A stretch of 48,454 nt of DNA from Candidatus Aquidulcis sp. (lineage in GTDB: Bacteria > Chloroflexota > Anaerolineae > UBA4142), in NCBI GenBank assembly GCA_020723345.1, contig DYJA01000049.1, forward strand, positions 1 through 48,454, given 5' to 3'. This document shows positions 1,435-5,118 of the stretch, one piece after another. Each line of letters opens with the position of its first letter. Position 1 is the stretch's first letter. A program made the translations under genes and the position numbers. The notes beneath the pieces are model-generated. The model did no database searches. It saw only the letters and a list, made by a program, of their open reading frames with translations, and was not told the origin of the DNA.

Positions 1435-2832
1435 ATGCGCCGATGGTTCACAGCACCTGGGTTTTGGTTTGCGATCTTGTTGGTATTTCTTGGCGTGAAA
1501 CAAGCGCTCGCGCTGTTCGTTTTTCGACAGCCGGGGAATGCTTTCCTTCCAGACTCGTTTGGCTATGAAGACCTGGCGGTCAATCTTTTGCAGCGCGCCA
1601 GTTTCGACGTTCCAGGCGAACCCATGGTTGGCTTGGTGCGGACGCCCGGTTATCCGGTATTCATCGCCGGCATCTATGCGCTCGCTGGACGAATTCCGGG
1701 TTGGGTGATTTTCGTCCAACTGATTTTGGATGCGCTGACGGCTTTGCTGATCTGGCGAATCGCGCGGGAATATTTTTCCGAAACAGTCGGCGTGATCGGC
1801 GCGTTCATCTACGCGATCAGTTTGAACGCGACCGTGGGCGCGCTGTACCTTCTATCGGATACGCTGTTTACGTTTCTCTTGGTCGGCGCGTTCTTTTTGC
1901 TGAGCCGATACTGGCGCGCGCCGGAGCGCCGCTGGCTGATTTCGCTGGGAGTCATTCTCGGCTTGCTGCCGCTGGTTCGTCCCATCGGTCTGTATCTCGC
2001 GGTGATTTGGATTGTCTTTTTCGCAATCAAGCAATGGAGAGATTCGATCAAACGATGGTACCGTCAGCCACTCGTCGTGGGCTTGCTCTGCGCGGTCTTG
2101 GTTGCGCCGTGGATTCTGCGAAACTATGCGGTGACCGGTCGCGCGATGTTTTCGGCGGCAGAGGCGATGAATCTCTACTGCTGTTTTGCGCCCGCCGCGT
2201 TGGCGGAAGACGCCAAGATACCCTTGCTCGACGCGCGCGCGCAGGTCGACGCGCCGTTTCGATTTCAATCTCTGAACACGGTTGAACCGCGCCAACTCTT
2301 TCTCGCCGCCGATTACGCGATCCAAATTATCTTGCAGCATCCGCTCGGTTATGCCAAGGCGCATATCAAAGGAGTCTTTGCCACCCTCTTCGAACCAGCG
2401 TACAAACAATGGCTGCCACTCGTGGGGAGTGAATACACCGCGTCCGGATTTCTTGCCAAACTAATGTCGCTCGATTTGAGAGGAGCAAGCGCCAGTTTAT
2501 CTGAAACGACGGCGTCGGGCTGGTTTTGGCTAGCTCTACCCATTTTGAATTTGAGCTACACCATCGCCGAGTACTTGTTGGCGGCATGGGGCGCGTGGAA
2601 AATATTCCGCCGGTCGTCGAATCGCCAGGCGCTTGCGCTTGTCTTGCTGGGCGTGATTACGATTCTCTATCTTGTCGTCGCGCCGGGCTCCGGCGGCGGT
2701 TTGCGTTTCCGCATTCCCGCCGAACCGTTGATCGCCTTGCTTGCCGCGGTCGGCGTGACGAAAATAAACCTGGGTTCCATGAGCCAGGGAAAACCACTAT
2801 CGGTTGCGTCGAGAACAAACGCGCATGATTAA
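1435..2832 (+). CDS. Multi-pass membrane glycosyltransferase (GT-C / ArnT-PMT-like)
   Basis: The 465-residue protein has about ten hydrophobic segments. Its layout is typical of lipid-linked-sugar GT-C transferases (glycosyltransferase family 39-like): an N-terminal helix, then an extracytoplasmic loop with acidic residues (PDSFGYEDLAVNLL) and VRTPGYPVFIAGIYAL, which resembles the conserved RxPGYP motif of that superfamily. Substrate and acceptor cannot be told from sequence. The start is ATG 1435, preceded by AAAGGGGA and 10 bp after moaC. It overlaps the next membrane-protein gene by 8 bp, suggesting co-translation. Confidence 0.75.
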   Translation: MRRWFTAPGFWFAILLVFLGVKQALALFVFRQPGNAFLPDSFGYEDLAVNLLQRASFDVPGEPMVGLVRTPGYPVFIAGIYALAGRIPGWVIFVQLILDALTALLIWRIAREYFSETVGVIGAFIYAISLNATVGALYLLSDTLFTFLLVGAFFLLSRYWRAPERRWLISLGVILGLLPLVRPIGLYLAVIWIVFFAIKQWRDSIKRWYRQPLVVGLLCAVLVAPWILRNYAVTGRAMFSAAEAMNLYCCFAPAALAEDAKIPLLDARAQVDAPFRFQSLNTVEPRQLFLAADYAIQIILQHPLGYAKAHIKGVFATLFEPAYKQWLPLVGSEYTASGFLAKLMSLDLRGASASLSETTASGWFWLALPILNLSYTIAEYLLAAWGAWKIFRRSSNRQALALVLLGVITILYLVVAPGSGGGLRFRIPAEPLIALLAAVGVTKINLGSMSQGKPLSVASRTNAHD

Positions 2833-4069
2833 TCGCAATCTGGCAACGGCGGAAGACCGCGCGCGCTTGCCGATTCAGCGGATTGAAGTTGTTTATTTCG
2901 CGATCTTGTTGGTCCTGTTGGCAGCCGTCTTTGCGTTCAACGCGTTCGTCGCAGGCGGTACGATCTCGAGCGTCAAGCAACTCGCGATTGATTCGGCTTC
3001 GTGGCCCTACCCGCCGCAGTACTGGGGTATTCAATATTGGCCCGCGGCGATCAACCGCGTGCTGTTTCGCTGGATCATCCAGGGCACTTGGACGCTTTTC
3101 TGCGCGCCCGATGACGCGTGGGGATTTTACATTATTTTCATCGCTTGGAGTTTCGCGCTATTTTACGGCACGCTGGTCGCGCTGTACTTTTTCTTGCGAC
3201 TGTTGGATTTTTCTCGCCGGATGAGTTTTGGCGGCTGTCTGTTGTTCCTTGCTTGCGCGCCGGTGCTGTTGGCGTACAAATACCCTGTTGCCACGCGCGA
3301 AGATCCGCTGGCGTATTTCCTGATCGTCTTGGGACTCGTCGCGCTTTTCAAATCGAGACCGATCCTTTTTACGGTGATCGCAACGGCGGCGGCATTGACG
3401 CGCGAGACGACGTTGATTCTTCCGCTCGCGTATTTTCTGGCGTCGGGCGAATCGCTGCGGCAGCGCGTGCTCGTTTTCATTCCGCCCGTCTTGGCGTTCT
3501 TTGGAATTCGCCTGGTCACGCAAGCGCCGGTACCAGTGAACCAGCTCGAAGCGTCGCTGCTCAACTTCCTTTTTCCGTGGGAATTGATCGCGTTTCTATT
3601 CTGCGCGTTTGGCGCGCTGTGGGCGCCTTACCTGATCGGGATGCGCGAGCGGCGACAGTATAACGACGCGCTTAACTTTCCGTGGCGCGTCTTGATCACG
3701 ACAGGACCGATCATTCTCGTGTTGATCCTGGGGACGAGCGTCGCGCTGGGCAGAGCGCGCGAGATTCGTCCGACGTTTCTGATTTTTCCGTGGGTCATCG
3801 CGTTTGCGCTCGATTGGTTTAGCCGAAACCGCGCGTACCTGGCGCGACTGGCGGCGCGCAAGACTTTTTGGGTGTTCGCGTTTTCGATTTTCGCCGGATT
3901 GGCGGCGATTGTCCTCTATTTCAATTACGCGCAACGCGAGTTGACGACAGCCATCCTGGCGGATTTCCGCAATGGCTATTGGCTGGTCCTCGGAACGATC
4001 AATCTTGCGATCACGCTCGCGCTCTTTTTGCCGCGTGCGCGATCCAAGTGGCTAGCAGAGCAAGTTTGA
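2825..4069 (+). CDS. Multi-pass membrane protein of unknown function, possibly GT-C related
   Basis: About 414 residues with roughly ten transmembrane segments and short basic loops. A soluble domain or catalytic motif is not evident. I prefer ATG 2825 (MINRNLATAEDRAR), which overlaps the upstream stop by 8 bp, over ATG 2804, which would overlap by 29 bp. Neither has a good ribosome-binding site. The final TGA (4067-4069) shares its A with the selD ATG, so the two are translationally coupled. Pairing with the upstream gene suggests a joint role in cell-surface polysaccharide or lipid glycosylation. That is an inference from context only. Confidence 0.65.
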   Translation: MINRNLATAEDRARLPIQRIEVVYFAILLVLLAAVFAFNAFVAGGTISSVKQLAIDSASWPYPPQYWGIQYWPAAINRVLFRWIIQGTWTLFCAPDDAWGFYIIFIAWSFALFYGTLVALYFFLRLLDFSRRMSFGGCLLFLACAPVLLAYKYPVATREDPLAYFLIVLGLVALFKSRPILFTVIATAAALTRETTLILPLAYFLASGESLRQRVLVFIPPVLAFFGIRLVTQAPVPVNQLEASLLNFLFPWELIAFLFCAFGALWAPYLIGMRERRQYNDALNFPWRVLITTGPIILVLILGTSVALGRAREIRPTFLIFPWVIAFALDWFSRNRAYLARLAARKTFWVFAFSIFAGLAAIVLYFNYAQRELTTAILADFRNGYWLVLGTINLAITLALFLPRARSKWLAEQV

Positions 4070-5118
4070 TGACCACCGCAAAACAAATCCGATTAACTTC
4101 CTACGCCGCGTGCGCGGGCTGAGCGTCCAAACTCGGCGCAGCCGAATTGGCGCAAGTTGTGCGCCCCCTCAGCGATAAATTCAATCCGCGAGATTTCCCC
4201 GCGCTCCTCGTCGGACTCGGCGATCCGGACGACGCGGCGGTTTATCGCGTCAACGCCACGACCGCGCTGATCCAAACGCTCGATTTCTTTCCGCCGGTCG
4301 TGGACGACGCGTACTCTTTCGGCGCGATCACCGCGGCGAACGCGATGAGCGACGTGTACGCGATGGGCGGACAAGTGATCCTCGCGCTCAATCTCGCCGC
4401 GTGGCGCGACGACCTGCCGCTCGAACTGCTCAGCGAAATTCTGCGCGGCGGCGCGGACAAAGTCGCGGAAGCCGGCGCGGCGATTGCCGGCGGTCACACG
4501 ATCACCGATCAGGAACCCAAGTACGGTCTGTCGGTCACCGGCATCGTGCATCCCGACCGCATCGCGACGAAAGGCGGCGCGCGCGGCGGCGACGTGTTGG
4601 TGCTGACGAAACCGCTCGGCAGCGGCTTGATCACGACGGCCGGCAAAAACAGCGTCGCGTCCGACGCGCATCTGCAGAACGCGATTGCGTGGATGGCGCG
4701 TTTGAATCGCGGCGCGGCGCACGCAATCCAGGAAATCGGCGTGAAATGCGCGACCGACATCACCGGCTACGGTTTGCTCGGTCACGCGTACGAAATCGCG
4801 CAAGCGTCGCGCGTCGCGCTCCGCTTGCGCGCGGATGCGCTGCCGCTGCTCGACGGCGCGCGCGAATACGCGCGCCAACAACAAATCCCCGGCGGCGCGG
4901 GGCGCAACAAATTGTATCTCGAAGACAAGGTGGAATTTACGCGCGCGCTTGACGACGACCTGTTCGAAATTTTTTTCGATCCGCAAACGTCGGGCGGTTT
5001 GCTGATCGCCGTCGCGGAAACCAGACTGGACGCGCTTGTGCGCGCGCTGAAATTGCGGAACGTCGATCAGTGGATCGTCGGCGAAGTTGTCGCAGGAAAA
5101 GGAATCATCGTCCAGTAA
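4069..5118 (+). CDS. selD: Selenide, water dikinase SelD, itself a selenoprotein (in-frame UGA = Sec18)
   Basis: SelD makes selenophosphate from selenide and ATP for selenocysteine and selenouridine synthesis. The frame from ATG 4069 reads MTTAKQIRLTSYAACAG, then TGA at 4120-4122, then ASKLGAAELAQVVRPLSDKF and the complete SelD body to 5118. That makes 349 residues, the usual family length. The UGA falls exactly on the catalytic Cys/Sec position, three residues before the essential Lys (K21). This matches the Cys17/Lys20 spacing of E. coli SelD. The body shows DDAAVYRVN, TLDFFPPVVDD, NAMSDVYAMGG, AGGHTI and DPQTSGGLL. A caller treating UGA as stop would begin at GTG/TTG-type codons near 4147 and lose the active site. 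The start overlaps the upstream stop as TGATG. Confidence 0.93.
4123..4150 (+). promoter_or_regulatory. Candidate bacterial SECIS hairpin directly after the selD UGA
   Basis: CCAA (4127-4130) pairs with TTGG (4147-4150), and CGGC (4134-4137) pairs with GCCG (4141-4144), with a GCA apical loop. Bacterial SECIS elements lie immediately 3' of the Sec UGA inside the coding region, as here. The fold was made by eye only. Confidence 0.6.

Follow-up and report, generated by a model that had tools for sequence, protein, structure and literature searches.

The selD locus and its reading frame

Our window, a 48,454-nt stretch, comes from contig C72 of a genome of 6.34 Mb in 132 contigs that is 95.5% complete, and on its forward strand positions 4069–5118 hold selD, a predicted Sec-containing selenophosphate synthetase gene (349 aa, selenocysteine at residue 18). 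Translated with TGA read as selenocysteine (U), this interval gives a single open protein of 349 residues with U18 and K21, the in-frame TGA lying at 4120–4122 (forward strand) and the TAA stop at 5116–5118. The NCBIfam model TIGR00476 aligns to SelD residues 8–318 (363.2 bits against a cut-off of 125), and because this match starts at residue 8, the frame 5′ of the TGA (residues 8–17) is part of the protein. After residue 18 come A-S-K, giving a UxxK motif, and in alignments the TGA falls on the codon that specifies Cys in Cys-type SelDs, so that the UGA does sit, as the initial annotation had it, at the catalytic Cys/Sec position three residues before the Lys. The gene also abuts its neighbour as described there: an upstream ORF (2804–4069) ends at 4069 and the selD ATG occupies 4069–4071, the stop and start overlapping by one base in TGATG (4067–4071, forward strand). 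The closest named relatives are Chloroflexota/Anaerolineae metagenome genomes (best 88% identical), and no relatives were found in the viral contigs searched. The sole RNA gene found in the window was a tRNA-Val (anticodon tac) at 810–883, which was also the only match of an Rfam scan of the window.

Plain ORF finding shortens this gene, giving a TTG start and a 323-aa frame (4147–5118, forward strand) that lacks both Sec18 and Lys21. The earlier expectation that ordinary gene callers would mis-start selD therefore holds for plain ORF finding but not for two annotated records that read through the UGA: among four UGA-SelD plasmid records (L217, L218, L219 and L221), two are annotated there and both of their CDS (L217 and L221) cross the UGA, and the records L218 and L219 list no genes in the SelD stretch. 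Because the CDS crosses the UGA in L217 and L221, present-day annotation pipelines need not mis-start a UGA SelD. Translation could in principle begin at the TTG, past the TGA, since 4147–5118 is open without recoding, in which case the product would be a truncated SelD-like protein lacking the catalytic loop, and the pre-TGA stretch would not be co-translated; we regard this as very improbable given that relatives conserve, in the same frame, both IRLTSYAACAG ahead of the TGA and the Lys behind it, that the TTG falls inside a conserved hairpin region, and that the genome carries tRNA-Sec, SelA and SelB. Reading the frame from 4069 correctly restores a gene which plain ORF finding cuts short.

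Selenocysteine machinery and conservation of the TGA codon

Profile searches of the genome found selA on contig C17 (593.8 bits), selB on contig C14 (361.5 bits, in a 621-residue frame) and tRNA-Sec on contig C70 (76.3 bits; gathering score 47), the last also called by ARAGORN as tRNA-SeC with anticodon tca, so that everything the initial annotation said the genome must have was recovered. The window SelD was the single genome match above the SelD cut-off, with three further matches being weak. A role for SelD in 2-selenouridine synthesis is unsupported, as selU had no match in the genome. Among 12 molybdopterin oxidoreductase matches of the genome, 5 have one in-frame TGA each, and in 4 of these it lies at the formate dehydrogenase motif ARLUH/ARIUH (U before H). 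The selD finding confirms the genome as a user of the selenocysteine code, one in which the enzyme feeding the pathway would itself depend on the pathway.

The TGA codon is conserved, with Cys as its only alternative. At the family level, SelD scored above cut-off in 13 of 14 genomes searched, and all 13 have one TGA, at this codon; at the class level, 250 of 298 genomes matched, and among 150 matches listed 143 contain one TGA and 7 no stop. Read directly at 123 loci, the codon is TGA in 113, TGT in 6 and TGC in 4, these loci including duplicates (distinct 54-mers number 97 Sec and 10 Cys); locus L017, which duplicates the window, was excluded from this reading and from later tests. A further 53 loci, 47 from two phylum-level searches centred on genomes titled Spirochaetes (L101) and Chitinispirillaceae (L110) plus 6 from plasmid records, gave 23 TGA and 30 Cys codons. 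Given that relatives with Cys exist (10 of 123 loci), one might suspect a Cys-SelD whose codon was corrupted to TGA in sequencing or assembly, as the initial annotation had allowed. This we hold to be vanishingly improbable: the codon recurs in assemblies from many projects, and hairpins accompany the TGA forms and not the Cys forms. Because 13 of 13 family SelDs and 113 of 123 loci have TGA, and the other 10 have Cys, we judge both chance and sequencing error at 4120–4122 to be excluded on this comparison.

Some loci in these searches depart from the common gene form. Two genomes (G422 and G465) carry second, divergent SelD copies (L215 and L216) that also have the TGA, beside another TGA-bearing SelD. 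In three class-level genomes (L140, L141 and L142), SelD matches with a Cys codon lie in open frames of 743–770 aa, and because these frames are so long SelD is probably fused there to another domain; a similar 752-aa frame occurs in G301.

Family score, a TGA at the catalytic codon within UxxK, and selA, selB and tRNA-Sec in the genome together place this gene among Sec-containing SelDs. The 4069–5118 product is SelD and, as first suggested, a predicted selenoprotein, since TIGR00476 spans the TGA, the codon is conserved and the machinery is in the genome; we are highly confident that in this Chloroflexota (Anaerolineae-like) bacterium selD codes for the selenocysteine form of selenophosphate synthetase, with selenocysteine as the residue presumably inserted at codon 18. 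A ribosome arriving at this UGA would be met by SelB with Sec-tRNA-Sec, which would bind a downstream RNA hairpin and insert Sec; Sec18 would then serve as the selenium-binding residue of the enzyme, and the selenophosphate made by SelD would be used by SelA for further Sec-tRNA-Sec, including that for SelD's own synthesis.

This core finding is correct and ordinary, adding one case to an already known kind. Sec-SelD is reported as the second commonest bacterial selenoprotein family (PMC1794560, PMC13188914), with 38 counted among bacteria, second to FdhA, and changes from Sec to Cys, with none from Cys to Sec, reported in SelD (PMC1794560). Compared with the bacterial Sec-SelDs described there (PMC1794560, PMC13188914), our protein is no different, sharing an N-terminal Sec in the selenium-binding loop, UxxK (listed as a SelD motif in PMC13188914), a SECIS inside the CDS, and selA/selB/selC; the window's signal, unlike theirs, looks like two hairpins, its G-U loop lying 32 nt away from the UGA. 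A search by title and abstract start, with subscription papers and supplements outside its scope, found no paper on SelD selenoproteins in Chloroflexota.

Hairpins downstream of the TGA

Two hairpins can be folded in the window past the TGA. The first, H1 (4133–4145, forward strand; bases 11–23 counted from the first base past the TGA), has 5 bp, loop GCA and −5.6 kcal/mol, its loop lying 15 nt past the TGA; the second, H2 (4149–4165, forward strand; bases 27–43), has 6 bp, loop AGUUG and −9.2 kcal/mol, with its loop 32 nt past the TGA. We propose H2 as the SECIS apex to which SelB would bind, a role with good support, and more tentatively H1 as a spacer. Bacterial SECIS elements in Sec-SelD have been reported by RNAz (PMC4561486), and the bSECIS model given in a figure legend (Fig. 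2, PMC13188914) specifies a loop of 3–9 nt with G in its first two places, 4–16 bp, a spacing of 16–37 nt and an energy of at most −7.5. Against this legend, H2 conforms in loop size, stem length, G position, spacing (32) and energy (−9.2), and H1, with a G-first loop, falls outside the limits for spacing (15 nt) and energy (−5.6). The SECIS-like hairpin that the initial annotation placed after the UGA is thus present, but it is double, with the second one fitting the published model; that model, as given there, describes a single stem-loop, and the window adds to it a conserved hairpin between the UGA and the SECIS. No paper on a two-hairpin bacterial SECIS was found by title and abstract start, a search outside which lie subscription papers and supplements with possible drawings of SelD SECIS elements.

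In the window alone, neither hairpin clearly beats chance, and the support is comparative: against synonymous recoding of the window, p was 0.19 for H2, 0.05 for H1 and 0.71 for bases 1–48, and the most stable structure of the 48 nt past the TGA has bases 1–5 paired in place of H1. Duplicates were removed before testing, leaving 97 distinct 54-mers of 113 Sec loci and, in a later set, 117 distinct 48-mers of 136; Sec representatives were picked at <85% (66) or <80% (76) identity over 60 residues. Across the 66, mean energy was −9.68 versus −8.45 for synonymous column shuffles in the H2 region and −7.59 versus −4.84 in the H1 region, with none of 200 shuffles as low in either. With the codon usage of each gene as the reference, mean z was −2.19 (H2) and −1.91 (H1) in Sec representatives, versus −0.27 and −0.14 in the 10 Cys genes, whose energies (−2.39 and −2.59) reveal no excess folding. 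Structure past the UGA is therefore conserved in Sec genes and absent from Cys genes. The 65 H2-bearing representatives gave −6.91 versus −4.38 shuffled for H1 and −9.09 versus −7.63 for H2 (0 of 300 shuffles as low for each).

Covariation at silent sites points the same way for H2. Its closing pair, formed by Gln codon 11 and Leu codon 13, changes in step, CAA occurring with TTG and CAG with CTG, and is matched in 42 of 46 representatives; their own codon usage predicts 29.1, and none of 20000 simulations reached 42. On a tree these two codons underwent 8 and 9 changes, yielding 6 independent pairs with 4.7 in the same direction and 0 opposite (median p 0.0625), so this covariation rests on few independent events. 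For H1, tests in a fixed register gave weak results (28 and 110 of 1000 shuffles did equally well) because its register varies among lineages; the energy test is register-free. A single extended H1 (bases 1–3 and 5–7 with 26–31) was rejected, its pairs being kept at 0.826 versus 0.824 shuffled (482 of 1000).

Near and far G-loop hairpins

Across the 117 distinct Sec sequences, a strict H2 (at least 6 pairs) occurs in 96, and within these 96 the H1 loop start G[G/U] is absent from 77 and present in 19; the 21 without a strict H2 have a proximal hairpin with G[G/U] in all but 1. By these criteria a G-loop hairpin is available in all forms except one, with its loop near the TGA (about 17–21) or far from it (33–34). 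Far forms usually keep a near hairpin as well (at −4 kcal/mol or better in 57 of 65 representatives), which mostly does without the loop demanded by the published model, the G pattern being missing in 50 of 65, and all 11 non-far representatives have a near hairpin with a G-loop. The 5-pair criterion for far forms is lenient, so that L091 and L177 are classed as far although their G-loop hairpin is near.

That near G-loop in 11 of 11 non-far representatives shows the H1 place to be the SECIS place elsewhere, and it raises the alternative that H1, not H2, binds SelB here, with H2 arising incidentally from the conserved coding sequence for LAQVLRP. We think this unlikely. In most genes that have H2, the G pattern is missing from the H1 loop (in 50 of 65 representatives, and in 77 of 96 sequences with the stricter cut); H2 also folds more stably than its synonymous shuffles, none of 200 and none of 300 being as low, and the window's own H1 misses the spacing and energy limits. 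Terrisporobacter L221, from outside the phylum, also argues against it, as its H2 lies at the same place and keeps 8 bp and loop GUU despite a different stem sequence.

We favour H2 as the putative SelB site and H1 as a putative spacer folded out between it and the UGA. Subtracting H1 (13–15 nt) from 32–33 nt leaves about 18–20 nt, against 18 nt for the formate dehydrogenase loops described below, which is why we suggest that H1 restores the usual distance; the agreement is in part unavoidable, because H1 has to find room between the ribosome and H2. Extended beyond the window, the idea becomes more tentative: SelDs of Chloroflexota and some other bacteria may use a two-part SECIS, with a distal H2 bearing the SelB loop and a proximal H1, itself devoid of a SelB loop, that folds out ~13–15 nt and brings H2 from 32–33 nt back to the usual 18–20 nt, and lineages may switch between this and a one-hairpin G-loop form; it is conceivable, though we would put it short of an even chance. 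Independent switches of architecture are few (8 changes), and on the tree far type versus G-loop gave 5 independent pairs, 3.4 in the expected way and about 0 in the other, a number that cannot reach significance. The two-hairpin signal is accordingly a modest new lead. If true, it would shed light on the great diversity of bacterial SECIS elements and on the broad range accepted for UGA-to-loop spacing (16–37 nt), as an intervening hairpin, and not nucleotide count, may set the distance.

In this genome the formate dehydrogenase genes (L128, L129, L134 and L135) likewise have a stem with a loop, there GGUCU or AGUUU (pairing by eye), but the loop lies 18 nt past the TGA, which leaves no room for an intervening hairpin, unlike in selD. 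The fifth TGA-bearing molybdopterin enzyme, off the dehydrogenase site, has a G-loop that starts 24 nt past the TGA (pairing by eye).

Two observations elsewhere in the genome stand apart from selD. Locus L131 (G000:C66:250184-252481) is a molybdopterin reductase of 766 residues with an in-frame TGA at residue 401, after GAGG and far from the formate dehydrogenase site; it is nearest PhsA/thiosulfate reductase (506 bits, under the model cut-off of 694). The codon is TGA in 8 loci including L131 and TGT/TGC in 8 relatives at 57–64% identity, more distant relatives (~35–39%) having no Cys at the position or a gap, and a G-rich inverted repeat (GGAGGCAGGTCTGCCTCC and variants) lies 3′ of the L131-type TGA. 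L131 is a probable selenoprotein among thiosulfate-reductase-like enzymes and may be more novel than the selD finding; a word search of the 2026 family review and our paper searches returned none like it. Contigs C101 and C73 each have, at their start, an elongation-factor-like match (L003 and L004); the two are nearly equal and lie at the same place (50–520), as would be expected had the assembly been interrupted at a gene present in duplicate, for instance tuf.
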